64,000 bases of DNA from Haliclystus octoradiatus (taxonomy: Eukaryota; Cnidaria; Staurozoa; Stauromedusae; Haliclystidae): the NCBI GenBank assembly GCA_916610825.1, contig OU744451.1, positions 21,521,849 to 21,585,848 of the forward strand. The letters run 5' to 3'. Positions 21,989 to 64,000 of the stretch are shown piece by piece. Each line of letters opens with the position of its first letter. The first letter of the stretch is position 1. The notes under the pieces were generated by a model. That model saw only the letters and a program-made list of their open reading frames with translations. It had not been told where the DNA came from and did no database searches. A program made the translations under genes and the position numbers.

Positions 21989-34336
<12,348 letters not shown>

Positions 34337-35595: not shown

Positions 35596-35890
35596 TTAAT
35601 TTGACTTCTCCTTTGATGATATTTCAGCTACTATCAAATCAACTTGCTTGCATACATCATCAGTAAATGTTCCTTTGACGACATTTGTATCAAAAGCACC
35701 TTTTTGATTCCCGCTCTTATCATACTTAGCAACAACCGTTGAGCAATACATATCATCCTTAAAGGATGTATATAAACCCATTCCAAGTTTTGTACTATTT
35801 TTCCATATCATTTGACTGAAGTGTTGAGTTGATAAGCCATTGTTTTCTTCTTTATCGAAGTCATAACCTGGAATACAGACTTCGCTGTAC
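35596..35890 (-). CDS. Gene R exon B10: terminal CAP half with stop codon
   Basis: Y-S-E-V-C, T-Q-H-F-S-Q-M-I-W-K-N-S, V-V-A-K-Y-D-K-S-G-N, then A-E-I-S-S-K-E-K-S-N and TAA at 35596. This is the only stop in the gene R chain and so its 3' end. The last exon of gene M (21989-22349) is the clear counterpart. The open frame upstream of 35890 is intron. Confidence 0.84.
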
Positions 35891-38800
35891 CTATAAAAGA
35901 TTTCATAATTGATATTAGAGCTTACTTTGATTAATGAAAGGGAATCGAACAGCTGCCACGGATCTGAATGGCAGGTTTGTCCAGGAAACTTTGAATTCAC
36001 ATAAAACTGTGAATGAAATTCGGACTGCAATTTTTGCTGCGATGGACTTCACTTATGAGAAGGAAATTTCTATCAGTATATCTCACGACTCAAGTGCAGC
36101 TATGGCCAATTACTTTGGTCCAAACGAAGTTCAACTCATCTTCCTTCCTAATGAAATTCGGATACAAATATATACTATAAGTACTTTCCCGTTTCTTGTT
36201 TTAGTCAAATTTCATCGTACTTATTTTAATATTCCTATTACATTCCCGGAAAGCACTTCCGTACATTGGATATACAGTGTCGTGCCATTTTTAGTCAGTG
36301 CCTTTCCCAGATTCGTGTGAAATTTTATGGTATCAATTTAGAAGATTTTCGAAATTTTAGATCTTTTCCTTTGTTTTCAAGGTAAAAACATGAAATATAG
36401 AGGTTTAATTCTCACCTGCCGTACAATTATCCCTGATTTTCGAAAATGGTATGCCACTTTTAAAAAATATCGAATTCTCCATCCCTAGGGTTTATATTCT
36501 ATGATTCATGTTCAAAGTCTTCTCAGCATTTGGAATGTAAATCGAATTTTTGAAACGTTTTAGTTAAACATGAAACAGGAAAGCATTCAGTATATATGTT
36601 TTTTGAACATTTTTATGCGAGTTCCGAATTCAAAAAAACCTGGCGTTTAGTTATCTTGTGAATCGTCTATTCGTTAATCCTCCTTATCATATCATCTTAA
36701 GCTCACCATGTTTTAACTGCATCTCCTGCACTCAATTTGGTGTTGGTGCTCTTGCATTCACTCAAAATATTTTCACCATCTGCGGGTGCTGATATATTTC
36801 CTGATTTCCCAAATGATTCTGCTCGCTTTTCTGCCTCCTTTGTCAATTGCTCATCCAGCTCCAGTTTTGGAGAGTCATGAATTGAGCGGAATTTGTTGTG
36901 AACTTTAAGTCCAAGCTCAGCAAAACCTACTGATAAAGAGAAATATAGTATAGAGAAATAGTGTAAAGTTTCCTTTTGAATTCCAAATGTAACTTATAGA
37001 TCAATGATAATTCCAGCAACCCCAGCTTTGAAGATCAGAATCGCACACTCAACCCACAGCAACCCACAATCGCTGCACTATATTATTCATTGATTGTCAA
37101 AAAAATTTCTTTGCCAGAATTTTACCTTGATTTGTCTAATTTCTCTGTAGCATGGATGAAAAAGGCACACAAAATAGAAATAGAATTTAAAAAAAAACGT
37201 GCTTACTACAATAGACTAATTATTGAATAACTAATGTGGTATATGAAGATAAAAACTACTGATTCGGGATAGTAACAAAGATTCTATAATAGATTCAGGT
37301 AATACAATCAAACCATCTATAATTATATTATCTATCCGAGCTTCTCTAATCCTTGAAATTATTATAATCATTTTGCCCTTGCATATCTGCATATTATATT
37401 TATGAAGGTTTAAAATCTTGAAAATAGATTTTGAGAGAGTTTCAAGAGAAAGCCAATGATTTTTAACGACATTCCCTTGCATACGTGTTGATCCTATAGT
37501 GGCAAGTTCTGATACGATCATTCATTAACAAAAAAATACCTAGCTCACCATCATTGTTTTCCTGTTTTCTTCCCACTGTTGACGATTCGGTATTTTCATT
37601 CTTATCCAAATCAGTATTCATGCTTATTGACGATAACCCAGTTTGATTTGTTTTCACATCCTCAGCGTTACCTTCCATTTGAAGCAATTTTCTATCTGCG
37701 GAATGAATATTCCTCATTTATAGTTACAATTTTCGTTTAGTTCAAACTAACAATTATTTACAATGAAATCAAATTACAAAAACATTTGCTTCTTACAAAA
37801 ATACGAAGATGTGAAGTATCAATCACTTTCAATCAAATCTTGCCCATCAGGCTCTATCGATTACCTATCGTGTTATACTCAATAGTGATATAGTATATAG
37901 AAATTCGACATTTAAGATTATAATTACAACATAGCATAATAGCTTATCAACGAGTGATCGCTTTATATCAAGAAAAGTCTATCTCAAGTAAAGTTCAAAT
38001 TCTAGCCGATCTTTAGAAAATAATCTAACTCTACAAAACGACAACTCTTAGGTAACAAAAACAAAAGACAACAACAATCTCTATAGAAAAATGCCAACTC
38101 GACGTTGATCTTTAAATAAACGAGACATACACGAGAATTATAAAGCTCTTCCATATATTGACTTTTCTAGAGATCGGAAGGCGCTCTTCCAGCGACGTTC
38201 TAAAATTCTTACCTGAATTATTGGCTTCCCTCTCTGTATTCGCTTTATTAGACGAATCGTCATTGCTTGATGAACTTTCATTGCTCTCCTTTCCCAATGC
38301 CTCGTCATTTATTTCTTTAAATATAGATGGTAAACCCTGACATACTCCAAGATTAAATTCACCTCTTTTAACGTTTTCTTTATATTTCTCAATCTTGTTT
38401 CCAGCATCTTGATATCGAGCAACAAGATAAGTGCAATTTCTTCCATGCTCTGTTCCTGTTGCTACACCTATTCCTAGCTTTGTACTACTGTCCCAAACAA
38501 GTTGTGTAAAATGGCCAGTTATTAATTCATCGTGATCTTCTTTCTCGAAATCATATTTATTTTCACAGATTTCTTTGTACCTAAAATTAAATGATTATAG
38601 GTGCAAGATGAGATACAATTAAATTTTTCGAGTTTATTATTTTCCACATACTTTATGAGCTAGAAGCTTTTTCTATCCTATGACTGGTTACATTGATTAT
38701 ATAGTCCAAGCATGCGTGAGGTAAATGGTCTAATGCTCTTCCTTTTGCCAAATATTGTTCCTCCTTATGATTGAATCTACACAAGACGCTGGAAGTAGAA

Positions 38801-41800
38801 GATCAAAATAATAGAAGCTGTATCAAGGCCGCATTGTATCCACGTTTTTAAATTATGGAGCTGTGGGATTATACACACATCATCCCAATAAATATTTTGT
38901 GAAAAATTCAGTCAATTTTCAGATGTAGAATCGCAAAATCTGGCAATTTTGAAAGATTGAAGAACCTAAGTTGCCGTGTTTCTATTCCTATTTACTACAC
39001 GAGGAATGTTGGAAGACACGATTGCTTCAACATTTTCTCCGGGAGACTTTTTCTCCTGTGGTTAGTAAATATGAATACAAACACTGAAATTTTTAGGCAA
39101 TCTTTTCTAAAATAAAACAAATTTCATTATCAAGTTTGTTATATTGCGAAAGGTCGTTCGAATCTTGAATTAATGATTTAAAATTCCATTTAAATTCAAT
39201 GTTTTACTTACTAAAATGTCCTTGGATCAAATTAAAACTTCAAAAACGTTAGTCTTTTTTGAATAGAAGCAGCTTTGTTGATATTATTTCTTTAGTAATA
39301 TATTGCAGTTTCCTATTCTTCTTCAGCTTTGAGTATCTGAAAAACTTTTAACGGGAATTTTGAAAATTGTTTATCCTTGAATTTCCAAACACATGAAACA
39401 GTCAATCGAATTGCAAGATTACGTTCGATTACGACGTCATATTTCAGAAACATCATTATTTATTACATGATGTGTTAAGAAATTTGAGCTATGACTGCCA
39501 TTGATATTTTATTATTTGATAAATTGTCATGAATTCAATCACATGATTTTCCATTCTGGTTTTGAGCTGAAAGTTGGTTGTTATCAAAACATATGACAGA
39601 AAAATTCAGGGAAGCATGAAACTCTATCAGGATATAGTGAGAACTTACTATATTGCTACTCATCTATTGGATGAAAATACCTAGCTATATACGCGCTGTA
39701 TACTTATACAAACCTGCATGCGACATTTTTTACAGAGGGCTACATTTTTCTGTTCTTAATTGGAAACATTATTTTTAGTAACTATATCCATAAAGAAACT
39801 CCCGTCCCTTGTTCCATGGAAATACCAATACAACACTTTACAGAATACTTTCATATAAAATAGTTTATTTATACCAGTGGCTATTCATCTTCATTTGTCC
39901 CCAAGTCACTTACCAACACTTGATAAGTTCTGTAACGTTTTTACCAGGTCCTTTTAGTCTGCATCCGTAGATTAGATTTTCACCAGCACCTTTCCTATCT
40001 TCTTTCTTCGCATGTTTTAATGTGCCAAGTTTTGCTATGACTTCAGCATATTCTTGTGCACCTTTTGTCAATTCTTTATCAAGTTTCATCGGTGTAGCAC
40101 CGTGGATTTTTCTTAGTCTATTATGAGCAATCAAACCCGTATATGCAGCATCTGTATGTGAAACAATATACCGTATATCAACATTTTGATATCAATATGA
40201 CGCCTTAAATTGTAGCCCTGTTATAATATCTGCTGCTAATATCATGGGCTACTTGTTAAAAAGTAAAACCCAAAATACCAGTCTTGATAATTATTAGCAA
40301 ACTCAAAGATGTAATATAGTAAAATCTAGTAAAATAAATTAACAATTAACCTTTTTCCGACGACATTCCTAACTGACTACAGAGGTATTGGTTATTACAT
40401 GATTGTGACTTCATGTCACCTATCATGGTCACGTGCTATTTACAAATTAACTAGTAAGATATTTATTTTTATCAATTACGTAAAAACTGCTATGTCCAAT
40501 ACTCCTTCTCAGTTAATTAATGTAACAATTCAAACCGATTTATTTTTTAATGTTTAAATGCAAATGTATAGATAATAAAAATGTTTGATATTCCTTCAAC
40601 TTTCGATTTGATTATACTATTAATCACGCACATATGATATGGATCTTGCCACGTATCATGCTGTGTCCTTTTAATCATCCCTTCTGTTTCCTCGAAGGTG
40701 CTAAATATATTTGAGAGACAAATTACACCTTTGTTATATATACGGTCTGTACCAAAAGCATGCTATTTTCCATCCGCTAGGTTAGTGATGTATTCTGTAT
40801 TCTCCTCCAAGGATGTACAATTTACCTTTTCTATATTACCTGACTCTGTACTACAGGGCTAACAAAGCCCTAATTTATTGTTATTCGGCCGACATTCAAA
40901 GTAAATCAACTACGTAATAACTGCTATTTCCGATACTACTTATGTAGCCTGATATCTCTGAAACATATTCAATCAAACACGACTTTTTCACGCCAGCGGT
41001 TTCTATAGCTTGCGTGCGTTCTGCGTGCATTCACAGGAAATTCGTCATAATTTATCACCTTTTCGTATTACGGTGTTTAGCGTTTCGATGTTTTGGAAGA
41101 AGTTCTGGCTTGACTAAATTTGGCAGTCGCTGTCATGTCGTAATTGACGGGGACTACATATACTGTCTGATGATAACTTAAAGCCTCAAACTCTGAGGCC
41201 TCTATTCTTGTTTCTGAATTATTTATGCTATGTTTAAATGACACTGATAACTATTACATACATTTGTGTGTTACTATTGACTATCATTTCTAATAAATTA
41301 GATTTAGGAATGAGAATTTGTATGCACAAATTATAAGAAATACTCAACGAAAAGAGCAGATTAAGAAATAAAGGAACTGCAAATACTAGACATGAATAAT
41401 TTGTATTCATAAAAAATAAACTGATGTCAAAGACCCCATTGATTTACGAAAGCCTAGCTAAATACGCTCTCTTATTCCACCACGTGATTTCTTGTCCATA
41501 TATATAATCGTTAATTGCATAATAGTATTTTACTAGTTCGTGTTTCACGCTGATTCCCTTTTCCATGATTTCAAATTTTCCTGCATTATTTGGTGACAGA
41601 CAGTGTAGTTGCAAATATTATAGCTTTTTATACTGTAAAAAAAACAACATCTTTCTTTGAAAATATTCCAATGCTCTAACCAATCTTTATATGGCCAAGA
41701 AGATGCGAAGCAAAAATATTCTCAGATTCTTGTATGGATAGCAGTATATAGGAAATGTGCTATTCCCCTTACACCTAGCTTGTTTTCCACACAAGGAGCT

Positions 41801-44800
41801 GTCATAACTCACACATAGCTACAAAGAAACTTGTATAAAAACTCCATTGCAGCAGTTGTGGAGCGCACTGTTTTCGATCTAGATCTTTCAAAATGGCCCA
41901 GCAATCCCACATGAGCCAACAATCCAACATGGACCAACAATTCAGCGACACCCAACAATCCAAAACGGCACAACAACTCAGTCTGGCCCAACAATCCAAC
42001 ACGGTCCAGCAATCCAACGCTGCCTAAAATATTTCAAGGTTAAGATCTATATGGCGAACGAGGCTAACAGGTCCACGCTGAATGTTTAATGAAGTTAATA
42101 AATTCTGAGATACCTTTTGATGATATTAACTCTGTATTACTATACTGCATGATTATTTTATTATGATTGCTCTTCTCATAACTTTTATCGCGATTTTAAT
42201 AGCAAAAAAACACTTCGGTCTTTACTGTGAAAAATCTTTATAGACTATTCTCATCAAACATTTTTAAGATATAACCATATGCGCGTTTACTCTGAAAACA
42301 GGTTCACGAGCTTTATGGCGCTAATTAGAAATTTAGAAACTCATGAATTACACATTTGAAATGCTTTGCATAAATCTCTATAAAAAGGAAGCAGATAAAT
42401 ACTGTAAATAAACTTAAATGAATTTTCTTACCGTTGTTGATTTTCATTGAGGATACTGCAGTTTCATCTTTTTTAAGATCATCATTGTCTTCAAATTGCT
42501 TTGGATTCTCATAATGTAATGAGTCATCTTTTACTTCTGAATCTGGGCTTCCATTTTCATCTCCTGAAAAGTTGGATCGCACCAAATTATTAACTCTCGA
42601 CTAAATATTGATAATACTCTAACCAATGTTTCGTAGCTTGGAGTTGGGATGCATTAAGCACGGGTCCTTCTTTATTACATCCAAATACTAGATTTTCACC
42701 AGTTCCATTCCTATCTTCAAGCTTAAAATGTACTAGTGTACCACGGTGATTACTACTAGCTATTACTTTTGTAAAGTCTTTGGCACCTTTTGATAAATCC
42801 TTATGGAGAGTCGTCAGTGGGGCATTGTGGATCTTTAGTAGATCAACAGTATGTTATAGAAAAAATGTGATTTTTGTATTACCATCTTATGGATGTACTA
42901 TATACTCAGCAAAATCATCCCTCTACCCATAAATCACTACAAAGGAGATAAATTTCACATAAATCCCATATAAATTTATCGCCCTTATATAGCGCTACCT
43001 TATAGAGCGCTACATCGACAAAATATTTGATAAACTTGACACACTCCAGCACTTGTATCATAAGGAGTTGGCTTATGTTATGGAGTAATGAAGAATCCAG
43101 TTCTTCGTGTATAAATACCAGTATTGTGAATTGATTAATTTTAGCAATGTAATGGAAAGTAAAGTAGATTATTCAACAACTTACCCCTAAATTTTGAATC
43201 ATGCCAATATTTAGCATTACTCATTGTCTTATTTGAGCTTTTTGGTTTACTGTCTTTATTTTCATCATTTAAACCATTAAAACCTTGTACTCCATGTAAT
43301 TGGTCTGTTTTATTATCCACGTTGATATTCAATTCCAGTAATGCTTTACCTCCCGTTTTTCCACTGCTGTTGGACAATAATTCTTCATCAACTTCTTTCA
43401 TCATTTCAGGCAATCGTTTACATACATCATTGTGTTTAAAAGATCCTTGTCCAACATTCTCTTTATATTGACCTTCCATATTCCCTCTCTCCTTGTATCG
43501 ACCAACGATGTAAACACAATTCATTCCATCTTTCTGGGCAGATGCCATTCCGATACCAAGCTTTGTACTATTCTTCCACACAATTTGTGTAAAATGACCA
43601 GTCTGATTAAGTCCTGTGGACTCTTTGAATTTATAACCAAACTTACATATCTCTTCGTACCTGTTAGTATGAAGAATGGAAATCAACTGATGAATCTTGA
43701 AAGGAAAAAACTGATGGATACATTTATTCGTGTCATATCAATTTGGAATTATGTCCACACGTCACAAAGCATACACAAATACGAATTGAAGACAAATTGC
43801 TTGGTGACAAGAAATATTCATACAAGAAATAAAATGATCCTGTGAATAGTATTAAAATCCCTTATGAACCTTTATACTGCAAATATAATATCTTGAAAAT
43901 GTTGAAAAATCATTCAATTTACGGTTATACTATTGCAAACATGATCTGCTATAGTCTCTCTCCTTTTAGTCCTTGCGTTTTCCAAATATTTAAAAAAAAG
44001 CGTAGATTCACAATATATTTTGCCACATTTTCATGATAAACACATTTCCCTGAATAATTTGACTATACTATCATTCTTAACAGAACATTATTAATTCTCG
44101 AATAAATATTGATACTAATCTCACCAATGTTTTGTAGCTTGAGATGTATTGAGAGGGGGTCCATCTTTATTACATCCGAATACTAGATTTTCACCAGTTC
44201 CATTCCTATCTTCAAGCTTAGAATGTACAAGTGTACCACGGTGAGTACTGTTAGCTAATACTTTTGCATAGTCTTCGGCACCCTTTGATAAATCCTTATC
44301 GAAAGTCATCAGTGGGGCATTGTGGATCTTTCTAAATTTATTGTGTGCTGCTAATCCCAACTTTGCATCATCTAGGTAAAATATCAAGATTAAAAAAATG
44401 AAGGTTATCGATAGATGATGAAAAATTTTCGGTTTATTAAATATATCATTTGAATTTCAAAAGAAGAAACAAACGAGTTACAAACTATTGAAAACTGCAA
44501 TCTGTGTACAGTTGCACTCGGTTAATATTCCCTCTTTTAATATCCTACTTTGCTTAATATCCCCATGTAAAACTGATTTCTTGTTTCAATTCTCCATACA
44601 AACTCTCATAACCTACCTCGCTTAATATCCCACCTCGCTTAATGTCCCGCTTTTTATCTGCACCAGAGGGAGAATATTGAGCAAGTTCGACTGTATTAGC
44701 ATGATCCCATGAAAACATAAACATATTCATACTATTGGAAATAATGTAGAATTATTCACGATGATATTCTTCATTAATTAGCCTGTTAATTATGCATTGA

Positions 44801-53800: not shown

Positions 53801-56800
53801 GCAATTCTGAACAGTTCAGGAACCTTTCGTATAATCTACTTTGCTGTAGTTTAATCTATATGATGCTACTTTGCAACCATTCAAAGGTTTGAAATATGAG
53901 TTATAATTAGGATAACAAATGAAAACTGATATCTGGTCAAGCTTGTAATGATGCAAGTATAACTGATATACAATATCCAAATCGTCTTTTCAAGGCCGAT
54001 ATCTCTGAGAATGTGTTTATGACTCAGTGGATTAATTTTTAGAAATGCATAAACGTCATATTCTCGTTTCTCTAGGCATTTTTCGTTATGTTACCAGTTG
54101 TGTATTGTTCGATGTAACTTTTTTATATAATCATCATTCCTATTATGCAGTTGATGAACAGTTGCTATGATCCATTTGGCACATGAGAAGACCACAAGGA
54201 GGAAAGGGTATTCTAACAAAAAATAACATGAGTCACGGTACGAGGTTTCTCCTGGGAGACGTGAATGCAGAGCCTCAACTTTAGTGACACACCAAAAGTA
54301 ATTCCTAAGTGTTCACGAAATCGGTGCAAAGTCAACAACTATTGAATAGCTTATCGGAACGATAATACCATTGTGCATCAATCCACGGTGCTCATTTTAC
54401 TTGAGTATAATTATCATATAAAAAATATAAAACTTCCATATTTGCGGCACTTTGTCGAAAATAGTTTGCATCGAACCTGAACATCAAATATTTTCCCTTC
54501 TAATATATGCATTTTCTAGAAAACGATATTAACTGATTTTTAACTGATGAACTGTTACTATTCACAAAGTGCTACAGGTTGAAATTCATTCCACTCACAT
54601 TGTTTTTTTCGATTGACATTCAGAATGCTTCAAATTGTGAATTTGAAGTAGCCGAAAGTTCTGAACTTAAAAATGGGTAAAACTGCTGGTATATTTTATA
54701 ATGTGTAGATACATTTTGTATTTTTCATCCTCGCCAAGAAACAACTAACATTTTAAAGTTACTTACTTCCACCTTTTCCCGTACCACCACATGAGCCACC
54801 TTTATCATCATTTTCAGATGCACCAGAACTGCTTGGTGATGTCTGATTTCCACTCTCATTAGATCCTGGTTCTTGTTGGCTTTGTCCGCCATCATTTCTA
54901 CCTTGATTTCCAGTATTATTGGGTTGGTTTTGCGGAGTCTGTCCATTATCGCCATTGTCTGAATTTGAACCTGTACTATCTCCTTCGTTGATCCCCTCGT
55001 TTTCATTTGATCCAGTATTTGGCTCTTGCCCATCCATGCTTTGTTCGTTTTCATTATTTTCTTCTTCTGAACTTTCTGTTGTTTCTTCACCATTTTGTTC
55101 AGTGTTTTCATTCTCATCTACTTTTGTACTTCTCAATAATCCTTCGACATCTTTGCAATTGTTTCGTTTGAAATTTCCTCTTTCAATATTTTGTGAATAT
55201 TGACCAAGATAATTTCCCATCGGTTCGTAAAATGCAGCAAATACACCACATGTCATATTTTCATTTTCGAAAGATGAGCTAGCTGCACCAAACTTTTTGC
55301 TGTTCTTCCAAATCACTTGAGCAAAATGCCTAGCATCTTTATAGTCACGATTGTTACCAGGGCTAACATTATCAAGGCAGGCTTCTTTATACCTTGATAG
55401 TCAGATAGAAAACAAGGTTGAAGTTATAGAAATACCGTCCCTTATCATATCCTTTTGGTGTACACTTTACAAAGTGATTTCAGTGGTTGCAGCCAGAGCT
55501 ATCTGTTTATAAAAGTTTTGACATGCAACTTGTTTGCTTTTGAACAAAAACTTTTTCTCATTCATGATATTATTTTCGCACGCTTTGTTCCAGTTTTGCG
55601 AGCTTGGGTTTGACGGAACGAAAATGGCGTCTGAAAATCACGTGACTTGCATCTGTCCGATTGGAGCTGAGAGCGGCACATAAAAGAATGTTCTAACTCT
55701 TGCAAAGAGATTGCTCTGGCTGCAACAACATTTTGATGGACTCAAGCGCCAAACCTTTACTTGACTATTCTTATCATAAACATGAAGTGAACTTCGGGGT
55801 GGAAACATGATGCATTATTTTTCGTCTAAAAGTCTTCATTTTAACATTTTAAAACTTACTCGTTGTTGTATAAAAACTGAATATGACAAGCAATAAAATA
55901 TTTAAATAGTATAGTATAGTAAAGTAAATTAAAGCTTTATCGATCAACTGGGTGCAAAAACTCGTTCGAAATCTGATGACCCACGCTCAAAACGTTTCCT
56001 TTATCGTTGTCTTGCCATCCAGCAGAGAGGTGGAACTCGACCAGCATCATGGAAACTTTTAATTATATTTAAATATGTATATAGAATTTATGGTATTACA
56101 TTTATAGATTTTAAAAGATTAAAACCTAAAGTCATATGATCAGTAGCGGTTTCCAAATTTTTATATCAATCCTATATAAATACGTTACCAGTTACTAGCA
56201 GTAACCTATTCTAGTGCCTTTTGTCATACAGTATAATCATTAGTTTGAGTGAAAATCATAACTGTGCAACATATTTAATTGCATGTATCCTAATTTGCAC
56301 TTCTCAGAAATTGTTTGGCAGGAACTTGACAGAAAAGTAATAATAGAGTATCAAAGTCTGAGCTGGTTAGTGGTTACATTGTGATTCCCTTTGTATTATA
56401 ATGAAACTTATTCGATCAATTAAACTCTAGTTTGGCGCCAAACCACCATAGCAAAACTTGGTTCGAAAACACAATCGATCTTACAATTCGAACTTGATAT
56501 CACGAATGAGAATTTGCAATTTGATCAGGAGTTTTCAAAAGCATTTTACGAGCAATAAGATCATATAGATACTTTTGTGAAAGTTGTGATTGTTATAATA
56601 CAAAGCAATCAGTGCACAGATTCCATGAGCTATTGATATTTGGGGCACATGAGTCACTCAAGAAGAAAATTCGAAGGCAAAAATCTCTCGCCACTGCGGT
56701 TTGTGATTTTCGGATGCCTTCTCGTTTTCTCCTTACGTGCTTATCGTTATAATTAACCTCACATATATACAAACAAATCCGTTGAATTTGAATTTAGAAA

Positions 56801-59800
56801 TATACACACCAGCTAAGTACAGCATCCGTTGCATTGATAGGCTTTGGTTCTCCAGCTGCACAATTGATATAAAGATTTTCTCCAACATCTTGTAATTCAT
56901 TTTCACCTTCTTTAGCATCATTTTTAGATCCCTTACTGATATTATCAACCCTTGCTTGAGCTTTTGCAAACAATTGTGAATCGAGTTCAAGCTTGGGGCT
57001 TCTATGGATTTTACGCAATTTATTATGCACTTCCAATGCTTCTTTAGCCACATCAGAAACTAAAGTGACAATAAATATAATCTTTTAATTTATATTATTG
57101 ATATAACATTTGAATAATTGATCGTTTTTTCCTTCAGTCAGGGTCTGGTAAAATGTGGCAACTTTGGCAAATCGCATTCCTCGCCCTATCAGAATTGATC
57201 AAAAGAATCATCGAAGATGAGGCCAGGTGGAAGATTATTGTTACATATGTTCTGTATAATGATCGTATGTAATTTTTTCTGGTATGATTAGGTCCATTGA
57301 GGCCTATGTGAATGGTTGAAAGTAATTCATCACTGATATACTGTGACAATATCATGAATGAACATGTAGTGAATCATGTAAGTTGACCTAACCGAGGCCT
57401 TGGATTGAGTGAGAGTTGAGACTCGTTAACCAAACTTCAGGAGAATCTTATAATGGGAAGCACTTAAAAATGGTAAGTTCCTGTAAAGCCTGGTTTCCCC
57501 TATTGCAAATTTACCTGCGTCGTTGCCTGCGACATTTGCCTGAGTCACAGCCGTAGACATTTAATGATCTTTTTTCTATTGTTTCGACCGGATATCATTA
57601 GCTTGCCTGCGTCATTTCAAAGTTGAACTCACTCCAACTTTGAAATCAGTCAGACAAGATGATATCCGGTCGAAACAATAGAAAAAAGATCATTAAATGT
57701 CTACGGCTGTGACCCATGCAAATGTCGCATGCAACGACGCAGGCAAATTTGCTATATGGGAACCAGTCTCAAAGCATGAGCATCGAAGATAAAATGAAGA
57801 GATTTTTCTTCGTGTTATTTCAAACACATATAATTTATGCTTTGTTCTATTCAATAACATAAGATAAATCAAGGCACTGATCGTTTTGAAAATGATTACA
57901 GGAAGAAGGCAAACATTTGTAGACCGTAATATTTTAAATTAGTGGAAATTAACATTGAATACATGAATAATCACCCCCATATACACAAAGATTATTTATG
58001 ATAGTATTTGTTTTTGAACTAACCTTTATCAGAACCAGATTGTCTAGGCATTGCTATATCCATGCCATCATTTTCCAGATGTAACGAGTTATATCCCTCA
58101 CCAAGTGTTTTTTTCCTGGCACTATTTCTCTCGGTTATTGATTCAGAAAGAACATTTTTCATATTAAGAAATTTATTATATACTTTAACTGTCATTTTCT
58201 CCGATTTATCGGCTGTTTTATCTCCTATAAATTTCTCACTCTTTTTAGATAGGTCCTCAAATGCAGCATCGATTGGACTCCTCTGGCACATAGTTGCCCG
58301 ATTAAACGTCCCTTTATCGATCACATCTTTACCCACAGCATTTAATCCTCCATTTTTCTTATACCTAGCCACTATAAATGTACACCTGACATTGTTTTTC
58401 TTGATACTTGCTCGACCCATTCCAATTTCGTTGTTATTTTTAGAAATTATTTGTGAGAATTTTTTCATATCGACTGAGTTTTGAGGCTGGGAAAAATCGA
58501 AGTCCTCCGATTTGCAAATTTCAGAATACCTAAAAGAAAAAGTATACAGTCGATAAGATGAAGGTGCAAATTCGCTGCGTATAAGTGGATAATATGATAT
58601 AGTTAATAATTGTAATTCTATGCAGTTAACAAAGGTTATAAATGCCTTATATAATATATACACTCAAAAATAATAATAATATAATAATAATACTTTATTT
58701 GGTATAGCGCACTTTCCAAAAAGCTCAAATGCGCTTTACAGGAAGTAAATAACTTATATATAGTTATTTACAAATAAAAAGTTTTAAAAAAATTCATGCA
58801 GAGAAATTATTGAACACTAACAACAGAGAGAAAACTGACAAATTGAGTAACTCCGTGAGCTTTTAATCAATCAAAATGAAATTAAAACTGCGAAAATGCT
58901 GTTGCTGTATGTTGAAAAATAAATCTGGGAAAATTACTAACATCTAATTGGAACGAAATAGGAAATAAAGAGTCTCGGATTAGTATAGCTCGTGTATACT
59001 GTAAACTCAGGTTAAAACAGTATCTAACTGTTTACTCTCCTCTTGTAAGCTACCAAATCTACATCTTCCTAGATGTAATTCAACACAAATTACTCTATAC
59101 TATATTGCTTGGTGGAATGATATGTAAGTATAGGAAAACAATAATTTTAATAGTGGCAAATGTCAATAGAGCGCTCGATGCTGATAAGCAAAGGAATACA
59201 AAATTTAAGTCAAAAGTAAAACATTTTCTCGGTTGTTTAGAGTTCACGCAGTAGCACTTATCCCCGGGGGGTAACTCCAAGTGACGCATTGATGGGGGGA
59301 GTGCCACTTTGGAAAAATGTGAAGTACCGGAAAAGTCCCGAAAATCCCCTTTAAGAGCTACCCAAATTGTTTTAAAAACTTGAAAATGCTACCCAAAAAG
59401 TCCACGGAGGGTACTTCCATATAGGCTCTATGCGGGAATATTCCATTTTTATGGGTAAAAATTCAAATCCTGTTTTCAGTTTTCAGCCTTCAAACTCAGA
59501 TTTTTCCCAAATTCTCTAGAAAATCGAAATGGGACCCAAAACGTTTGATATTTCAAAATTCCCTACACGAAAAGTAAAATTCTCAGCTGGAATATGGACC
59601 CAAAAAGTGGCACGTCCCCGTATAGCAGCAGTATGGGAGTTACCCCCCGGGCACTTATCAGACGGTCTGAATGACACATTATGATGAGATCGTGCCAAAC
59701 TTTGATTAGCGAAGATATGATCTGTGACTTGATATCTAAACGGGAAAACATTTGTACTTTACCATGATTTGACAGCATCACTTGCAGACATTTGTTTATC

Positions 59801-62800
59801 ATCCATTCCACATGAATAGGCAATATTTTCACCCTCATTATTGACGATTGATCGAGGTGAAGGCTCTTTTTCATCATTTGCTAATAGTTTTGCATAATCT
59901 TCAGCCTCTTTTGATAATGCAGCATTAAAATGCAACGCTGGTGCATTATGTATTGTTCTAAGTTTATTATGTGCTTTGATTCCTTCAATCGTAAAGACTG
60001 TCAAAAGAAATGATACAAGCTCTATAATTCCAAATAATAAAAGGATAAAAGTATCTTCGAGAGGCGGAAAATTTCTAAATGGGAAATAAACATAAAAATG
60101 ATACAAGCTCTATAATTCCAAATAATAAAAGGATAAAAGTATCTTCGAGAGGCGGAAAATTTCTAAATGGGAAATAAACATAAAAATGATACAAGCTCTA
60201 TAATTCCAAATAATAAAAGGATAAAAGTATCTTCGAGAGGCGGAAAATTTCTAAATGGGAAATAAACAAAAAATGTGTTCGGCTTCTAATTCTTCATGAC
60301 TTTCGGTTCAGATAGCAAGCCTGAAGATTCTCAGAGACACTTAAAACCGTGAGCGATTGAGTATTAAACACTGCTTTGCTGAAGACATAAAATTATGAAT
60401 ACTGATGGCAAATGCTAATCCGTTTTAAATGCGAGCCACCAATCAATAAGACTCAGAAGAAGATAAGTTGCTTAAAAAGTTGAGAGTTCCAAGAGTGAGT
60501 TGCTTAAGAGACTGAGAATGAACTGTTGAAATACGCTATTAGTTATTGAAGGGACCATATAAATTGTTTCAAATTTCCTTTACAGTTAACTAGAGATCTC
60601 CCCCTTGATCTCTTTGTTTTGATCTCAGAATTCAATTGTATAGATTCACTTACCATTTAACACAGGAGAATTGTCAGCTTTTTCATTTTGAATTCTCTTT
60701 TCTGTTTCCCTGGCTGCCGCCATCGTATCCCAATCATTTTCAAATGCTGCCATTGAACGAATTGCAACATTATCGTTTTCATTTTCCATTTTCACAGCGA
60801 CAGAACGAACCTTTGCACATGTTACATCTGAGTAATCGCCTCGTGGTATATTCTCTCTAAATTGACCAATCACATTTCCAGGATTCTTATATTTTGCAAC
60901 AACGAATGTACATGTCGTATTGTTTTTACGGTGATGTTGCTTCGTTGCTAATCCGAGACGATCTGAATTCTTCCAAACTAATTGAGTAAAATGTTTTGAT
61001 CCTTGGGGTCCATTTTCAGAATCAAAATTATAGCGTTTTGTACAGCCTTCATCGTACCTTTTAAAATGAATGATAGAAAAGCATTTGCAAACCCCAAGTA
61101 CCCAGCAAAATTCCAACATCACTGCTTCATAAATTTGTTATCTATTTACCTGTTTCACAGTGAAAATAAATATATTTTTTAATTTTCAAGCCGCGGATTT
61201 CAATAGCGTGTGGAAATGTATCTCTTCTGTGTGTGGAAAGCTTGGGGCTTATTGTCAACATTTCAGCATATTTTGGCATAAAGTCTGTCGTTTGATAACT
61301 CCACCGCAGTACGGTTGGCTTTTGCAGCCTTTGTGCTTGGTCATGAATCAGAAATCAGAAATCAAGGCAATGAGAAACTTCTACTTTTTAGTTTAATATC
61401 ACGTGACCTATAATATCTCATTAATATACGTATGATTCCACTGCATAAACAAGATAAGGAGATTGGATAAAAATAGAAGAAATACCAGTTCGGAAAGTTC
61501 AGAAACAGATTCAGGTTCAATTTAATGCTGGGTCACTAATATATAATATCAGCAGCGTTACTCACATAGAAGATTCAATAGGTGCTAATTCAAACATTAT
61601 ATAAAAAAATTTGTAAGGCACAGGTTTATTTACAGTCTCGAATTCTTAGATATAAAATTCCTCAAATAAATGCACTTTGCAAATCCTTGTCATTTCAAAC
61701 TTTTCATATTTATTTGTATTGCGTCACAAATATATGGCAGAAGTCAAAAATCTAATACTCCTGTCTAGAATCCAGCGGTGATTCTGCGCATATAAGCTAC
61801 GTATGTAATTCAATGTAAGTATTACTCATTATAGGTGTATGGAGTCAGAATTCTCAGACTCCAAATCCGAAAAATAATTTTTATAGAATTGTTTGACTCC
61901 GAGCCTGGCTCCAAAAATGTAAGTAAAATCGACTAATTTATCAACCCAAAATTAAGTAAACATAGGAAGATACAAATAAATTAACATAATCTTAAATACG
62001 TAGCCAATCCTAGAATCCAGCAACCTCTATGTAGAAATATGCAGACAATTTTCAACTTTACAATGATTATTAAGAATTTACCAGGAGTGCATTCTAGACT
62101 CCGGCTCCGACTTCTTCTCCAGTCTGGCTCCTGTTGAAAGATGGATACTTATCCCGGAGTCTAAGTCCTGCTTCTGTACCTCTGTTACTCACCAGTTCAT
62201 GACAGCATCTCTAATAATAGCTCTTTCACTTCTCTGATGTCCACATTCCGAATAAATATTCTCACCAACAACAGCATTGTATTTTTTACCAATTAATTTT
62301 AATCTCATTAATTGATTTGCTCTCCGTGTTGCTTCCCGTGTAGCAACTAGATCCATTTGTAATGGGGGCGATTTATGAAGTCGACGGAAATCATTGTGAA
62401 TACGTAAGGCCTCTAGAGCAGCTGGTTCTGTAAGAGAGGGAGAAATGTATGTGTACGCTTACGATATATATTTAACTTAAATGATCAATTGAGCATGAGC
62501 AAAGGACGATAAATTAATTCTTTAATAAATAGGTCATAGAAGAAAACATAATATCATAAAAATATGTAAAACTTTAATATATTATTTGTCTTTGCTGAAT
62601 GCTGATTTGTAGTGATTTCTTAAGCTTACAAGATGATTAAAATAGATTTTTAAACAGATTAAAAAAGATTCTTAGTTTTGCAAAGCAATCATCACTCCTA
62701 AGAGATCATCGGACAATCGATTAAAGATATTTCAAATTATCTGAAGAATTTTGTTAGAAAATAAAATGAAAACCCTAGTAAAACCCAGAGAACATTCCTG

Positions 62801-63670
62801 ATATTCATTTTATCGAAGATGAGTGGTTGAAGCGTTATCAAGGTATTAAAAAATATAAATATAAAGTTAAACCAAAATGTAGACTGAAAATGATGATAGG
62901 AAGCTAGGTGTAAGGAATTATATTACGGTCTAATCAGTATTATTATTATTTTTCTCTTCGGACCTTTATTGATTTATTGCGCCATGCATTTTGCTGCAAG
63001 TGGCAACATCAATAAATCCATTACAGAGATACTCTATATACAGTGATTTGCCGTATCGACTTAGACTCCACTAAGCATCCATGCTCCAATAATTGGACAC
63101 TATTCGCCCTAACATCTAAATATCGTATTGATAGTTTTATTATTTTACCATAAAATAATAATTAGTATGGTGGCCATATCGAGTATCTCAGTCATTAAAT
63201 ATTCCCTTGAAACATTACACACCACTTTGATTGATCTCTGTAATGGATTTATTGATGTTGCCACTTGCAGCAAAATGCATGGCACAATATATAAATAAAG
63301 TTTGATTATTAAATTTATTAATAATTTAAATTAACTAAAATAATTACCCATCAAGCTGCTTCTGATCATTGTATTATATTCCTCGGTAGCAGCAATACTG
63401 GCCCTTGATGTAATCTCTGATAAATCATTGCAAACACTTTGATTAAATTTTCCAGATTGTACATTACTTTTATACATTCCGTTGCTATTTCCTGGTTGTG
63501 AATATCGACCAACAATATATGAACATAACAAACCACTTGAGCGTTTTCTTGTTGCGATACCAATACCAAGATTTCCTGTGTTCTTCCATACTAATTGGGT
63601 GAATCTTGGTGCACCTTGGTCACCTGATTCCTGATTGAAATAATATCCACGTCGACATAATTCTCTGTAC
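35596..63670 (-). CDS. Gene R: giant multi-CAP-domain secreted protein (5' end off the window)
   Basis: Gene model of 21 exons: 63348-63670, 62193-62427, 60654-61057, 59763-59997, 58024-58529, 56810-57059, 54767-55392, 53109-53346, 51061-51887, 50424-50661, 47613-48067, 46434-46680, 44881-45344, 44125-44371, 43185-43660, 42432-42563, 39914-40151, 38213-38580, 37549-37695, 36707-36926, 35596-35890. The visible exons sum to 7,171 nt: one base completing a split Trp codon, then 2,390 codons including TAA. A exons are 3n+1 long, B exons 3n+2 and linkers 3n, so the whole chain stays in frame. It encodes half plus nine full CAP domains joined by polar tails. Paired Cys after the G-E-N motif and in Y-x-E-x-C suggest an extracellular protein. 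CAP proteins bind sterols or lipids or act as extracellular effectors; the role here is unknown. The transcript could instead be divided into several genes, but no internal signal-peptide exon or stop is seen before 35596. Confidence 0.75.
36707..36926 (-). CDS. Gene R exon A10: N-terminal half of the last CAP domain
   Basis: GT-TTT-GCT after the acceptor: F-A-E-L-G-L-K-V-H-N-K-F-R-S-I-H and D-G-E-N-I-L-S-E-C, ending TG|GTGAGC. 220 nt, the same as the gene M counterpart 24814-25033 and about 70% alike by eye. It has no ATG, so it is visible only as an internal exon. Confidence 0.84.
37549..37695 (-). CDS. Gene R linker exon L2
   Basis: 147 nt, phase 1-1. Acceptor CCGCAG|AT, donor GAT G|GTGAGC. 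Encodes D-R-K-L-L-Q-M-E-G-N-A-E-D followed by Asn/Glu/Ser-rich sequence. No domain recognised. It sits between the ninth and last CAP units, the same place linkers take in gene M before its last unit. Confidence 0.6.
38213..38580 (-). CDS. Gene R exon B9: C-terminal half of a CAP domain
   Basis: Translated by hand from G-TAC: Y-K-E-I-C, T-G-H-F-T-Q-L-V-W-D-S-S, T-Y-L-V-A-R-Y-Q-D-A-G-N, then a Ser/Asn-rich tail (S-S-S-S-N-D-D-S-S-N). No stops. Ends N-N-S|G at a GTAAGA donor, phase 1. Partner of 39914-40151. Only its last third lies in an ATG-started frame, so it is easily missed. Confidence 0.82.
38581..39913. other. Gene R intron without recognised features
   Basis: AT-rich intron; no exon, RNA gene or clear repeat found. 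Confidence 0.5.
39914..40151 (-). CDS. Gene R exon A9: N-terminal half of a CAP domain
   Basis: Acceptor CATACAG|AT completes Asp. Encodes A-A-Y-T-G-L-I-A-H-N-R-L-R-K, L-K-H-A and G-A-G-E-N-L-I-Y-G-C, ending TG|GTAAGT. 238 nt, standard length. Confidence 0.83.
41834..41840 (+). promoter_or_regulatory. TATA box upstream of the Q-Q-S repeat ORF
   Basis: TATAAAA, followed about 20-25 bp later by a possible initiator region (TTGCAGCAG) and the ATG at 41893. The spacing suits a short 5' UTR. TATA-like strings are common in AT-rich DNA, so the support is the combination with the ORF and the poly(A) signal. Confidence 0.35.
41893..42027 (+). CDS. Candidate 44-aa Q-Q-S hexapeptide-repeat peptide, intronless, nested in a gene R intron
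   Basis: ATG in a fair Kozak context (TCAAAATGG) opens a 44-codon frame ending TAA. The peptide is M, then seven hexapeptides (A-Q-Q-S-H-M, S-Q-Q-S-N-M, D-Q-Q-F-S-D, T-Q-Q-S-K-T, A-Q-Q-L-S-L, A-Q-Q-S-N-T, V-Q-Q-S-N-A), then A. A TATAAAA lies 59 bp upstream (41834-41840) and an AATAAA 70 bp downstream (42097-42102). The frame is visibly richer in G+C than its surroundings. It is antisense to, and inside, the 40152-42431 intron of gene R. It could instead be an 18-bp minisatellite with a chance frame. No family recognised; too short for routine ORF finding. Confidence 0.4.
   Translation: MAQQSHMSQQSNMDQQFSDTQQSKTAQQLSLAQQSNTVQQSNAA
42097..42102 (+). terminator. Candidate AATAAA poly(A) signal for the Q-Q-S repeat ORF
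   Basis: AATAAA 70 bp after the stop codon of the 41893-42027 frame, followed by T-rich sequence. Compatible with a very compact transcription unit; could be chance in AT-rich DNA. Confidence 0.3.
42432..42563 (-). CDS. Gene R linker exon L1
   Basis: 132 nt, phase 1 at both ends (acceptor TTTTCAG|GA, donor CG|GTAAGA). Encodes an acidic/polar peptide (G-D-E-N-G-S-P-D-S-E-V) with no recognisable domain. It probably extends the tail after CAP unit 8. Being a multiple of three, it could be skipped without breaking the frame. Confidence 0.6.
42624..42849 (-). pseudogene. Dead duplicate of CAP A exon 44125-44371
   Basis: Reads H-N-A-P-L, T-L-V-H-F-K-L-E-D-R-N and G-T-G-E-N-L-V-F-G-C like 44125-44371, and its 3' flank (the ACTAAATATTGATA region) also matches. 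It lacks the first ~15 codons and has no acceptor at the boundary. It would also be out of phase with the next exon, because an A exon ends in phase 2 and the linker starts in phase 1. No B exon follows. Best read as a truncated tandem copy inside an intron. Confidence 0.7.
43185..43660 (-). CDS. Gene R exon B8: C-terminal half of a CAP domain
   Basis: Y-E-E-I-C, T-G-H-F-T-Q-I-V-W-K-N-S (canonical CAP1 motif) and V-Y-I-V-G-R-Y-K-E-R-G-N, followed by about 65 residues of Asn/Asp/Lys-rich tail. Phase-1 donor GTAAGT after F-R. Together with 44125-44371 it makes one of the best-preserved CAP domains here. Confidence 0.84.
44125..44371 (-). CDS. Gene R exon A8: N-terminal half of a CAP domain
   Basis: D-D-A-K-L-G-L-A-A-H-N-K-F-R-K, T-L-V-H-S (CAP His present) and G-T-G-E-N-L-V-F-G-C, ending TG|GTGAGA. 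A degenerate duplicate of this exon and its 3' flank sits at 42624-42849. Confidence 0.83.
44509..44693. mobile_element. Small TA-flanked MITE
   Basis: Ends CAGTTGCACTCGGTTAATAT and inverted CAGTCGAACTTGCTCAATAT, with TA on both sides. The interior repeats the TTAATATCCC word. Tigger/pogo-like non-autonomous element in a gene R intron. Confidence 0.6.
44881..45344 (-). CDS. Gene R exon B7: C-terminal half of a CAP domain
   Basis: Opens with G-TAT GAC GAA ATC TGT (Y-D-E-I-C) and continues with K-H-F-S-Q-I-V-W-K-N-S and V-F-I-V-G-R-Y-Q-A-R-G-N. A tail rich in Asn/Ser/Asp ends T-E-F-S|G at a phase-1 GTATTA donor. I read the part upstream of the internal Met codon directly; it has no stops. Confidence 0.82.
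45492..45660 (+). mobile_element. tRNA-derived SINE, second family (S2)
   Basis: Box-A-like TTGGCGTAGTAGTTAGGG and box-B-like GAGTTCAATCCCTGAC, followed by a body with GAGTTAGGAAGGCTAACC. Related to 49152-49320. Lies in a gene R intron. Confidence 0.5.
46197..46255 (-). mobile_element. S1 SINE fragment
   Basis: TTGTTGATCTCAGG...CTGCAGATCAATTCC...AGATTTCATG is the inverted S1 body, decayed. Confidence 0.5.
46434..46680 (-). CDS. Gene R exon A7: N-terminal half of a CAP domain
   Basis: Acceptor GATAG|AT completes an Asp codon. Encodes A-A-E-L-G-L-A-A-H-N-K-F-R-K-I and G-T-G-E-N-L-V-Y-G-C, ending TG|GTAAGA. 247 nt, sharing a T-H-R-G insertion with exon 44125-44371. An upstream in-frame ATG at 46768 lies in intron sequence. 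Confidence 0.83.
47098..47312 (-). mobile_element. S1 SINE, 5'-truncated, minus strand
   Basis: Begins AAGTAATGTAGACGGAG (inverted 3' end) and follows the S1 body to TCTGGACCAT. The tRNA-like head is absent. The only long S1 copy in minus orientation. Confidence 0.8.
47613..48067 (-). CDS. Gene R exon B6: C-terminal half of a CAP domain
   Basis: Y-E-E-V-C, L-H-F-T-Q-I-V-W-K-K-S, G-R-Y-K-E-H-G-N and V-E-K-G-S-F-T-K-D, then a Lys/Asp/Ser-rich tail of about 50 residues ending S-T-F-S-G at a GTAAGA donor (phase 1). The CAP half is almost the same as that of 51061-51887. Confidence 0.83.
48640..48845. mobile_element. Penelope-like terminal fragments, inverted pair
   Basis: AACAAATGACAGCGATAAAAAAC (48640-48660) and the inverted GTTTTTTATCGCTGTCATTTG (48808-48827) are the same terminal sequence seen in the Penelope-like element at 12060-15290. 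A hammerhead-like core lies between them. No RT sequence is left. Confidence 0.55.
48660..48709 (-). ncRNA. Hammerhead-ribozyme-like motif (Penelope-like)
   Basis: CTGATGA, stem II GCCAT...ATGGC, GAAA, then CG...CG as a two-pair stem III and TG. The conserved core is better than at 15205, but the residue at the cleavage position appears to be G, which hammerheads do not cleave. Stem I is weak. Confidence 0.42.
49152..49320 (+). mobile_element. tRNA-derived SINE, second family (S2)
   Basis: Box-A-like GTGACTAGGGCGTTGG and box-B-like GGGTTCAACCCCTGGCC, then GCGTCAGGAAGGGCATC, resembling 45492-45660. Confidence 0.5.
50424..50661 (-). CDS. Gene R exon A6: N-terminal half of a CAP domain
   Basis: Encodes P-A-D-L-G-L-A-A-H-N-K-F-R-E, L-K-H-S and G-A-G-E-N-L-A-Y-G-C, ending TG|GTAAGA. 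Acceptor TTTCAG|GTCCT, phase 1. It differs from exon 53109-53346 at only a few residues. Confidence 0.85.
51061..51887 (-). CDS. Gene R exon B5: C-terminal CAP half with tandem N/Q/G repeats
   Basis: Y-E-E-V-C, L-H-F-T-Q-I-V-W-K-K-S and V-Y-V-V-G-R-Y-K-E-H-G-N form the CAP half. From about residue 105 the tail is an imperfect ~19-residue repeat containing N-S-Q-N-Q, D-N-A-G-S-N-N-G-G and N-G-Q-N. The exon closes at a phase-1 donor (GCA A|GTACGT), which joins in frame to the next A exon. Its first ~110 codons and its upstream intron are nearly identical to 47613-48067, but the tails differ entirely. Confidence 0.83.
51888..53108. other. Gene R intron without recognised features
   Basis: AT-rich. 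The start matches the intron at 48068. Short open frames at 52030-52275 and 52299-52484 show no similarity or composition suggesting coding. Confidence 0.5.
53109..53346 (-). CDS. Gene R exon A5: N-terminal half of a CAP domain
   Basis: After the AG acceptor, GT completes a Ser codon from the previous exon. The exon encodes P-A-D-S-G-L-A-A-H-N-K-F-R-K, L-K-H-S (first CAP-site His kept) and A-G-E-N-L-A-Y-G-C, ending TG|GTAATT. It is very close to exon 50424-50661, same length 238 nt, which marks a recent unit duplication. Confidence 0.85.
53347..54766. other. Gene R intron without recognised features
   Basis: AT-rich; nothing specific seen. The introns 55393-56809, 61058-62192 and 62428-63347 are similar. 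Confidence 0.45.
54767..55392 (-). CDS. Gene R exon B4: C-terminal CAP half with long acidic Asn/Gln/Ser tail
   Basis: Y-K-E-A-C, R-H-F-A-Q-V-I-W-K-N-S and F-A-A-F-Y-E-P-M-G-N mark the CAP half (about residues 1-85). About 120 residues of Glu/Asn/Gln/Ser/Gly-rich sequence with no hydrophobic core follow, apparently a flexible linker. Phase-1 donor GTAAGT after G-G. The A partner is 56810-57059. A second open frame over the same bases is an overlap artefact. Confidence 0.8.
56810..57059 (-). CDS. Gene R exon A4: N-terminal half of a CAP domain
   Basis: Encodes V-S-D-V-A-K-E-A-L-E-V-H-N-K-L-R-K and V-G-E-N-L-Y-I-N-C, ending TG|GTGTGT. Slightly longer than most A exons (250 nt) because of a Lys/Glu/Gly insertion before G-E-N. 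It holds the same position as 240-468 in gene L but is only weakly similar to it. Confidence 0.78.
57490..57766. mobile_element. Foldback element, family F1 (near-perfect hairpin)
   Basis: CTGGTTTCCC...GCAAATTTACCTGCGTCG pairs with the inverted right end. Inside, GACATTTAATGATC and GACCGGATATCAT appear again in inverted order. Almost the entire 277 bp can fold into one hairpin. No ORF. In a gene R intron. Confidence 0.75.
58024..58529 (-). CDS. Gene R exon B3: divergent C-terminal half of a CAP domain with basic tail
   Basis: Begins with G-TAT (Y-S-E-I-C) and keeps C-T-F-I-V-A-R-Y. The CAP1 motif is degraded to M-K-K-F-S-Q-I-I-S: the active-site His is Lys and the usual Trp is Ser. About 75 residues of Lys/Ser/Asn-rich tail follow to a phase-1 GTTAGT donor. 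The His-to-Lys change is shared with the gene L counterpart 979-1394, so it predates the gene duplication. Confidence 0.78.
58676..58745 (-). mobile_element. LINE/SINE 3' end with AAT tail
   Basis: AATAATAATATAATAATAATACTTTATTTGGTATAGCGC, then a loop and AAATGCGCTTTACAGG: the same AGCGC hairpin plus (ATT)n tail as 20582-20660 and 25205-25264. Confidence 0.5.
59263..59651. mobile_element. hAT-like MITE with perfect 16-bp inverted ends
   Basis: Ends CCCGGGGGGTAACTCC and its exact inverted copy. Flanked by CACTTATC on both sides (59255-59262 and 59652-59659), an exact 8-bp target duplication, the hAT hallmark. Internal GTGCCACTTT and CCATATTCCAGCTGAGAA-like words are shared with 16514-16809. 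Confidence 0.82.
59763..59997 (-). CDS. Gene R exon A3: N-terminal half of a CAP domain
   Basis: A pyrimidine-rich acceptor (TTTCTTTTGACAG) precedes the exon, which encodes G-I-K-A-H-N-K-L-R-T-I-H-N-A-P and E-G-E-N-I-A-Y-S-C and ends TG|GTAAAG. 235 nt, the same as its gene L counterpart 1824-2058. An open frame continues upstream to an ATG at 60106, but that stretch lies in an 88-bp tandem repeat and is intron. Confidence 0.8.
60012..60270. repeat. 88-bp tandem repeat, three copies
   Basis: Units start at 60012, 60100 and 60188 with GATACAAGCTCTATAATTCC and are nearly identical, the last slightly shorter. The array begins 14 bp from the acceptor of the CAP exon 59763-59997. Intronic, non-coding. 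Confidence 0.92.
60654..61057 (-). CDS. Gene R exon B2: C-terminal half of a CAP domain
   Basis: Begins G-TAC after AG and encodes Y-D-E-G-C, K-H-F-T-Q-L-V-W-K-N-S and F-V-V-A-K-Y-K-N-P-G-N, then an acidic/polar tail. Phase-1 donor GTAAGT. The CAP His is kept. It pairs with the A exon at 62193-62427 and is the counterpart of 2628-3007 in gene L, sharing Y-K-N-P-G-N and the adjacent G-Q-F-R-E-N-I-P-R-G. Confidence 0.82.
62193..62427 (-). CDS. Gene R exon A2: N-terminal half of a CAP domain
   Basis: Acceptor is followed by AA completing a Glu codon (phase 1), and the exon ends TG|GTGAGT inside the conserved Trp. It encodes A-L-R-I-H-N-D-F-R-R and V-G-E-N-I-Y-S-E-C. The first His of the CAP site, expected shortly before G-E-N, is not evident. 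Same length (235 nt) as its gene L counterpart 3383-3617. It has no usable ATG near its start, so it is an internal exon. Confidence 0.8.
63348..63670 (-). CDS. Gene R exon B1: C-terminal half of a CAP domain
   Basis: Starts after an AG acceptor with the G that completes the split Trp, then Y-R-E-L-C. It carries P-R-F-T-Q-L-V-W, where the usual active-site His is Arg, and the CAP2-like motif S-Y-I-V-G-R-Y-S-Q-P-G-N. It ends at a phase-1 GTAATT donor. Length (323 nt) and sequence match exon 3939-4261 of gene L. Its A partner must lie beyond the right edge, past the (AAT)n array. Confidence 0.8.

Positions 63671-63683: not shown

Positions 63684-64000
<317 letters not shown>

Follow-up and report, generated by a model that had tools for sequence, protein, structure and literature searches.

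Head-to-tail genes for predicted secreted poly-CAP proteins

CAP proteins are widespread, although how they act is poorly understood. The CAP domain usually comes singly or in pairs, and the locus described here raises the question of whether a long array of CAP exons is a row of small genes or encodes a single chain. The array lies on the minus strand of an AT-rich window (by which we mean the whole stretch of DNA that was analysed, 64,000 nucleotides), and the first-pass annotation had taken it for one gene encoding a giant chain of at least ten CAP domains.

Exons and reading frame of gene 1

For the first (A) and second (B) halves of the domain, profile HMMs were built from the window itself, with 11 exons of each kind as the training set. 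A search of the window with these profiles returned 18 A and 17 B minus-strand stretches, each with an E-value below 1e-14, and none of this quality on the plus strand. The 22 training exons match by construction, seven A and six B stretches are new, and the remaining hits have E-values of 2.2 or more. An exon table rebuilt from the DNA places 21 minus-strand exons of gene 1 (10 B, 9 A and two linkers) in one open frame that runs from 63670 to a TAA at 35598..35596 and covers 9.5 CAP domains, as follows.

63348..63670, minus strand: B3, second half of domain 3 (HMM, 114 bits; pairs with B3 of gene 3, support 98)
60654..62427, minus strand: domain 4, A4 62427..62193 and B4 61057..60654 (HMM; partner is gene 3 domain 4, support 100)
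58024..59997, minus strand: domain 5, A5 59997..59763 and B5 58529..58102 or ..58024 (HMM; partner is gene 3 domain 5, support 99)
54767..57059, minus strand: domain 6, A6 57059..56810 and B6 55392..54767 (HMM; long hydrophilic tail; no clear gene 3 partner; the acceptor used is not the best-scoring one)
51061..53346, minus strand: domain 7, A7 53346..53109 and B7 51887..51061 (HMM; complete tetrad and caveolin-binding-type motif)
47613..50661, minus strand: domain 8, A8 50661..50424 and B8 48067..47613 (HMM; complete tetrad and caveolin-binding-type motif)
44881..46680, minus strand: domain 9, A9 46680..46434 and B9 45344..44881 (HMM; B9 donor GTATTA weak, uncertain)
43185..44371, minus strand: domain 10, A10 44371..44125 and B10 43660..43185 (HMM; complete tetrad)
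42590..42853, minus strand: A11, a dead copy of A10, outside the reading frame (no usable acceptor, no B partner)
42432..42563, minus strand: linker exon of 132 nt, phase 1 to 1 (recovered by a blind exon scan)
38213..40151, minus strand: domain 12, A12 40151..39914 and B12 38580..38213 (HMM; complete tetrad)
37549..37695, minus strand: linker exon of 147 nt, phase 1 to 1 (placed by eye)
35596..36926, minus strand: last domain (13), A13 36926..36707 and B13 35890..35596 including the TAA (HMM; partner is the last domain of gene 2, support 100)

An AG acceptor precedes each of the 21 exons, and a GT donor follows each except the last. Exon lengths are 3n+1 for A, 3n+2 for internal B and 3n for linkers, the linker exons, like the internal A+B units, all run from phase 1 to phase 1, and there is no stop codon before the final TAA either within exons or across junction codons. 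This reproduces the earlier count of 21 exons joined in phase and 2,389 codons before a single TAA, provided that the B5 donor at 58024 is used, and the 9.5 domains and the absence of intervening stops likewise stand in the rebuilt table. The model adopted here (7,093 nt) uses the B5 donor at 58102 and is 26 codons shorter; donor 58024 adds 78 nt, and B5 has a third in-phase GT at 58240.

The B exons extend past the CAP fold into tails. The nine such tails of gene 1 are 24 to 194 residues long and hydrophilic at 77% of positions overall, vs 57% in the CAP halves; the longest, that of B7, is rich in Asn, Ser and Gly and is composed of 57-nt repeats. The gene 1 model has 38 N-glycosylation sequons. 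Each internal B exon of gene 1 has at least one in-phase GT ahead of its stop and B13 has none (in-phase GTs were listed with generic donor weights; the blind scan and the phase test below used weights from the window's own sites). Since the last B exon of gene 2 carries two weak in-phase GTs, the absence of a donor marks the gene end only in gene 1.

The intron within the domain cuts the same Trp codon throughout: all 18 A halves end in TG/GT and all 17 B acceptors read AG/G TA(C/T), with the slash at the splice point. For acceptors and donors elsewhere, phase was assessed by taking the best-scoring site whatever its phase, each class of site being scored with weights derived from the other class. 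For 15 of 18 A exons (p 2e-5) the top acceptor had the predicted phase; the exceptions are domain 6 of gene 1, the dead A11 and the start exon of gene 3, and the count includes the start exon of gene 2 as a match, though no acceptor is expected there. For A5 and A8 of gene 1 the best AG is a different one that lies farther upstream but has the same phase. Among the B exons the top donor agreed with the predicted phase in 11 of 17 (p 0.008), with the terminal B exon of gene 2 scored as a match; here the exceptions are domains 7, 9 and 13 of gene 1 (the last of these terminal), domain 1 of gene 2 and domains 4 and 5 of gene 3. B5 of gene 1 and B2 of gene 3 have ambiguous donors, the best in-phase one differing from that of the model, and the donors of B3 and B9 of gene 1 and B1 of gene 2 are weak. 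The acceptors are strong; the B donors are moderate and form the weakest part of the exon evidence. Among its best 46 candidates, the blind exon scan recovered the linker at 42563 and the linkers of genes 2 and 3; the linker at 37695 was not among them, and the further weak candidates were taken as false.

One extra half-domain of gene 1, A11, is dead, and the first-pass count likewise leaves it out of the frame. Positions 42586-42836 are 87% identical in DNA to 44087-44331 in A10, but A11 is without the first part, its best AG scores -3.8 and falls out of phase, and a search with the B profile found no hit between A11 and A12. Its inclusion would also break the frame, an A exon ending in phase 2 and the A exon after it requiring phase 1 at its start; on these three grounds we rejected A11 as a coding exon.

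The window also contains several repeats. Domains 7 and 8 are near-copies, with amino-acid identities of 90% for the A and 96% for the B halves; at the DNA level, B8 and B7 plus about 100 bp of upstream intron (47795-48164 vs 51615-51986) are 94% identical and A8 and A7 86%, which suggests a recent conversion of the B part between the two domains. Immediately upstream of A5 (10 bp) there are three recent 88-bp tandem copies with 99-100% identity (60008-60275). Nearly pure, very long ATT/AAT microsatellites occupy 25262-25782 and 63684-64000, the second of which starts 13 bp upstream of the B3 exon and reaches the window end. A foldback element with long inverted arms is found at 9345-9623 and 57483-57769 (about 75% identical), one of the two in a gene 1 intron. 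A dispersed repeat of about 220-370 bp occurs at 19066-19410, 23300-23670, 30911-31273 and 47090-47312 (89.5-94% identical); two incomplete copies lie at 19734-19894 and 46198-46258.

Paralogous genes and the extent of the chain

The rest of the window contains two further genes of this kind in tandem on the same strand, which the first-pass annotation had not noticed.

21989..34336, minus strand: gene 2, 706 codons as placed, two CAP domains, ending at 21989
34336..34047 and 32341..32028, minus strand: gene 2 A1 with ATG and hydrophobic leader, and B1 (weak donor)
30427..30221, 28940..28728, 27353..27126 and 26517..26230, minus strand: gene 2 linker exons
25033..24814 and 22349..21989, minus strand: A and B of the last gene 2 domain
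240..17832, minus strand: gene 3, 5' part, running beyond base 1 and off the window
17832..17540, 8896..8580 and 7644..7273, minus strand: gene 3 A1 with ATG and hydrophobic leader, B1 and linker L1
7018..6781 (A2) to 1394..979 (B5), minus strand: gene 3 domains 2 to 5 (B2 donor, at 5943, uncertain)
468..240, minus strand: gene 3 A6

In place of middle CAP domains, gene 2 has several linker exons (26207-29103), at least three of them alike and rich in N-glycosylation sequons; an additional linker copy near 28453-28217 was left unplaced in the model. The first intron of gene 3 holds two inverted 0.7-kb copies of part of a retroelement (12053-15281; 96% identical). The element has a GIY-YIG domain and an ORF for reverse transcriptase, an architecture by which we take it to be of the Penelope type. 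Between genes 1 and 2, on the plus strand, lies a tRNA-like sequence (34533-34610; Rfam 35.8 bits, gathering threshold 29) that could represent a tRNA, a pseudogene or a piece of a SINE; ARAGORN, run with the bacterial code, reported no tRNA there.

The exon order is A1-B1-L1-A2-B2-A3-B3-A4-B4-A5-B5-A6 in gene 3 and A1-B1-linkers-A-B in gene 2, and L1 of gene 3 matches L1 of gene 2 (E 8e-7). A maximum-likelihood tree of the A+B halves pairs domains 3, 4 and 5 of genes 1 and 3 with support of 98 (for gene 1 domain 3 from the B half alone), 100 and 99, respectively. Support is 100 both for the pair of first domains in genes 2 and 3 and for that of last domains in genes 1 and 2. Separate A and B trees return the same domain pairs (support 91-100); domain 6 of genes 1 and 3 stays unpaired. 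This pairing in a fixed order implies that the genes descend from a multi-domain unit and that the window edge falls inside domain 3 of gene 1. The missing half of that domain would sit past the window end, beyond the (AAT)n run, and by analogy with gene 3 the leader, domains 1 and 2 and A3 of gene 1 would be expected above position 64000, for a probable total of about 12 intact domains. The earlier statement that there is no signal-peptide exon is accurate for 35596-63670; as a property of the gene we reject it, since colinearity with the paralogues indicates that the window cuts the gene at domain 3 and the missing leader appears to be an effect of this truncation.

Could the array nevertheless be a row of separate small CAP genes, one A+B pair each, with their own promoters, leader exons and poly(A) sites? 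CAP genes commonly stand alone, the frame of each B exon reaches a stop soon past its donor, and in-frame ATGs were seen by eye just upstream of gene 1 A7 and A9 (the former followed by a moderately hydrophobic stretch) and of gene 3 A4 and A5. An ATG with a strongly hydrophobic leader, however, is confined to A1 in genes 2 and 3. A scan of gene 1 for separate start exons (ATG to phase-1 donor with a hydrophobic stretch) gave no candidate on the coding strand and one on the opposite strand, a coarse result that is blind to leaders inside A exons and has just that one match on its control strand. The domain order is colinear between genes. In the B3 tails of genes 1 and 3, past the CAP fold, codon positions 1, 2 and 3 agree in 10, 19 and 8 of 24 cases; the tail is coding as far as its donor, beyond which the two genes diverge. 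On the strength of the colinearity, the B3 tail pattern, the placement of the strong leaders and the leader scan we rejected separate small genes, which we regard as very improbable. Single-chain architecture of gene 1, in turn, we consider highly probable; this central claim of the first-pass annotation is well supported, if indirectly, by the paralogues.

The exons are also constrained. In 17 of 19 exon pairs dN/dS is 0.11-0.55, the other two pairs being saturated and the ratios rough, with several dS values above 1. Exon length is equal in four of 11 paralogue pairs (B3, 323/323; A4, 235/235; A5, 235/235; A13, 220/220), and in those four the exons are 63-80% identical vs 25-52% for the 60-nt flanks (ungapped). 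The seven between-gene DNA matches of CAP exons extend at most 17 bases beyond any exon border. The dead A11, the loss of tetrad residues in many domains and the retroelement copies inside gene 3 could be taken to mean that the cluster consists largely of decaying, expanded copies devoid of function. We rejected this reading, to which we attach hardly any probability, given that the 21, 8 and 12 exons placed in genes 1, 2 and 3 contain stops only at two gene ends, that dN/dS is below 1 in all 17 computable pairs and that three Cys residues are kept in all 17 B halves.

The number of domains per protein is a separate matter. Since gene 2 has just two CAP domains, the family is not uniformly giant. 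All internal A+B units and linkers, running from phase 1 to phase 1, could each be skipped in frame, and gene 2 offers a two-domain form under constraint, so the locus might yield a set of proteins of varied CAP number and no fixed giant chain. The phase symmetry would, however, be left equally by tandem duplication of exon pairs, and we judge such skipping unlikely, though by no means negligible. Overall, head-to-tail poly-CAP genes, with gene 1 encoding one secreted multi-domain chain, appear to us the probable explanation of the locus.

CAP identity and residue patterns

Pfam CAP (PF00188) was matched at E ≤ 0.05 by all 17 A halves scanned (the dead A11, the 18th, was left out) and by 15 of 17 B halves. 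B3 of gene 1 by itself has no Pfam match at E 1, yet reaches 114 bits in the search with the B profile built here. In profile searches of the PDB, a ranking that covers solved structures only, the A half has GAPR-1 on top (1smb/4aiw; E 9e-13) and Pry1 third and fourth, and the B half has yeast Pry1 on top (E 3e-12) and GAPR-1 second (E 7e-12); Na-ASP-1 (3nt8) is a weak match to the B profile (E 7e-4). The reference to nematode secreted proteins in the first-pass annotation finds no support, the closest relatives being GAPR-1 and Pry1. Members of the GAPR-1/GLIPR2-like group typically have a single domain and are not known to carry a signal peptide; here genes 2 and 3 start with a leader and the domains are many. 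Searches of viral contigs with the B8 half and of genome contigs with the A8 half gave 16 and 58 pattern matches, respectively, none of which was confirmed.

Each domain has four conserved Cys residues, three of them in all 17 B halves and the fourth in every A half but one of 18, A6 of gene 3, where Arg replaces it; these nearly invariant residues would allow two putative disulphides per domain. According to the accessible part of PMC10189770, the CAP tetrad coordinates Zn2+ and Mg2+, and other features of CAP proteins are two conserved disulphides and the caveolin-binding motif, OXOXXXXO. The His/Glu/Glu/His tetrad is complete in four of the 16 whole domains, all in gene 1 (domains 7, 8, 10 and 12); its first Glu is present in all 18 A halves, and its first His falls in a gapped stretch of the alignment. 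The motif OXOXXXXO is found in two of 17 B halves, those of gene 1 domains 7 and 8. With 12 of 16 domains lacking the full tetrad and 15 of 17 B halves lacking the caveolin-binding motif, a general ligand-binding role is weakened.

Another reading is that the protein is no soluble binder but part of a secretory capsule, such as that of a stinging cell, in a structural or venom role. The AT-richness of the window and the GIY-YIG retroelement fit many aquatic invertebrates, a background compatible with such a role. Many Hydra nematocyst proteins contain CAP domains, for which a structural proposal is cited in the accessible part of PMC3627010; the same text, however, reports no strong indication of a structural CAP role in Nematostella, and no capsule gene was recognised among the ORFs scanned in the window (a minority of its other ORFs). 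We view a capsule component as quite unlikely.

Proposed mode of action and known multi-CAP systems

As judged from the DNA, the window contains at least three head-to-tail paralogous genes for predicted secreted poly-CAP proteins. The chain of gene 1 would consist of a leader, CAP domains 1 to 10, 12 and 13, and glycosylatable linkers rich in Asn, Ser, Gly and Glu; domains 4-10, 12 and 13 and half of domain 3 are seen, and everything before them, from the leader through domains 1 and 2 to A3, is extrapolated from gene 3. If a single transcript is made and its product secreted, the protein could be an extracellular beads-on-a-string, each bead a GAPR-1/Pry-type CAP fold with two putative disulphides. 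Beads 7, 8, 10 and 12, which keep the tetrad (7 and 8 also the sterol-linked motif), would be the candidates for ligand binding, and the other beads may be structural or differently specialised. Because every internal unit runs from phase 1 to phase 1, units could be gained, lost or skipped with the frame intact, and gene 2 may have come down to two domains by losing internal units, or it may never have acquired the middle ones.

Repetition of this kind would provide avidity through stoichiometric binding rather than catalysis. Concatenated CAP domains have been taken to suggest a stoichiometric rather than a catalytic role (PMC10189770, accessible part), and a natural CAP chain would fit stoichiometric binding better than catalysis. 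That the protein is a multivalent lipid or surface binder is nonetheless a tentative proposal, for which we see somewhat less than an even chance. Still more speculative, and in our estimate rather doubtful, is the full scheme of phase-locked CAP cassettes that build secreted chains of up to about a dozen domains, their number evolvable and perhaps varied by splicing, in which a few beads bind ligand and the rest are specialised, making a modular extracellular multivalent lipid or surface binder. We found no description of such a modular multivalent binder for the CAP superfamily in the open-access literature. With some beads keeping and others losing the metal site and the sterol motif, each feature would be testable within one protein.

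Among the known systems, GAPR-1/GLIPR2 (PDB 1smb, 4aiw; 5vhg), the top solved relative of the A profile and second for B, resembles the present domains in sequence; unlike them it has one domain and is Golgi-associated by name, whereas here the domains are many, each with four conserved Cys, and the paralogues carry leaders. The CAP domain of yeast Pry1 (PDB 5ete, 5jys), top match of the B profile and third and fourth for A, differs in that the solved chains are matched across one stretch, whereas here the domains form a chain. Outside the short single-domain kind, animal CAP proteins include NOWA and other CAP proteins of the Hydra nematocyst; the majority of Hydra CAP proteins are set against the short single-CAP ones of Nematostella (both from the accessible part of PMC3627010). 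In NOWA, unlike here, CAP is combined with lectin and SEA domains (PMC11565402, accessible part). Given the contrast between Hydra and Nematostella, cnidarian multi-domain CAP proteins may be better known than appears here.

Chains with more than one CAP domain have been described from several sources, in each case as given in the accessible part of the paper cited. Trichuris CAP proteins have more than one CAP per chain, as here, but two or three domains (PMC9778506). Na-ASP-1 (Ancylostoma secreted protein 1, PDB 3nt8) has tandem CAP domains in one chain (PMC10189770), though two of them and of the ASP type, compared with 9.5 seen and about 12 predicted here, of the GAPR-1/Pry type. Protein A0A2V0P999 of the alga Raphidocelis subcapitata, too, has concatenated CAP domains (cited in PMC10189770); it has eight of them, comes from an alga and was compared by description only. 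These eight domains make the longest CAP chain that we found in the open-access literature, as far as the accessible text of PMC10189770 goes, and sequence databases could hold longer ones. If gene 1 does encode about 12 domains, the maximum per chain would rise from the eight that we found in print to about twelve.
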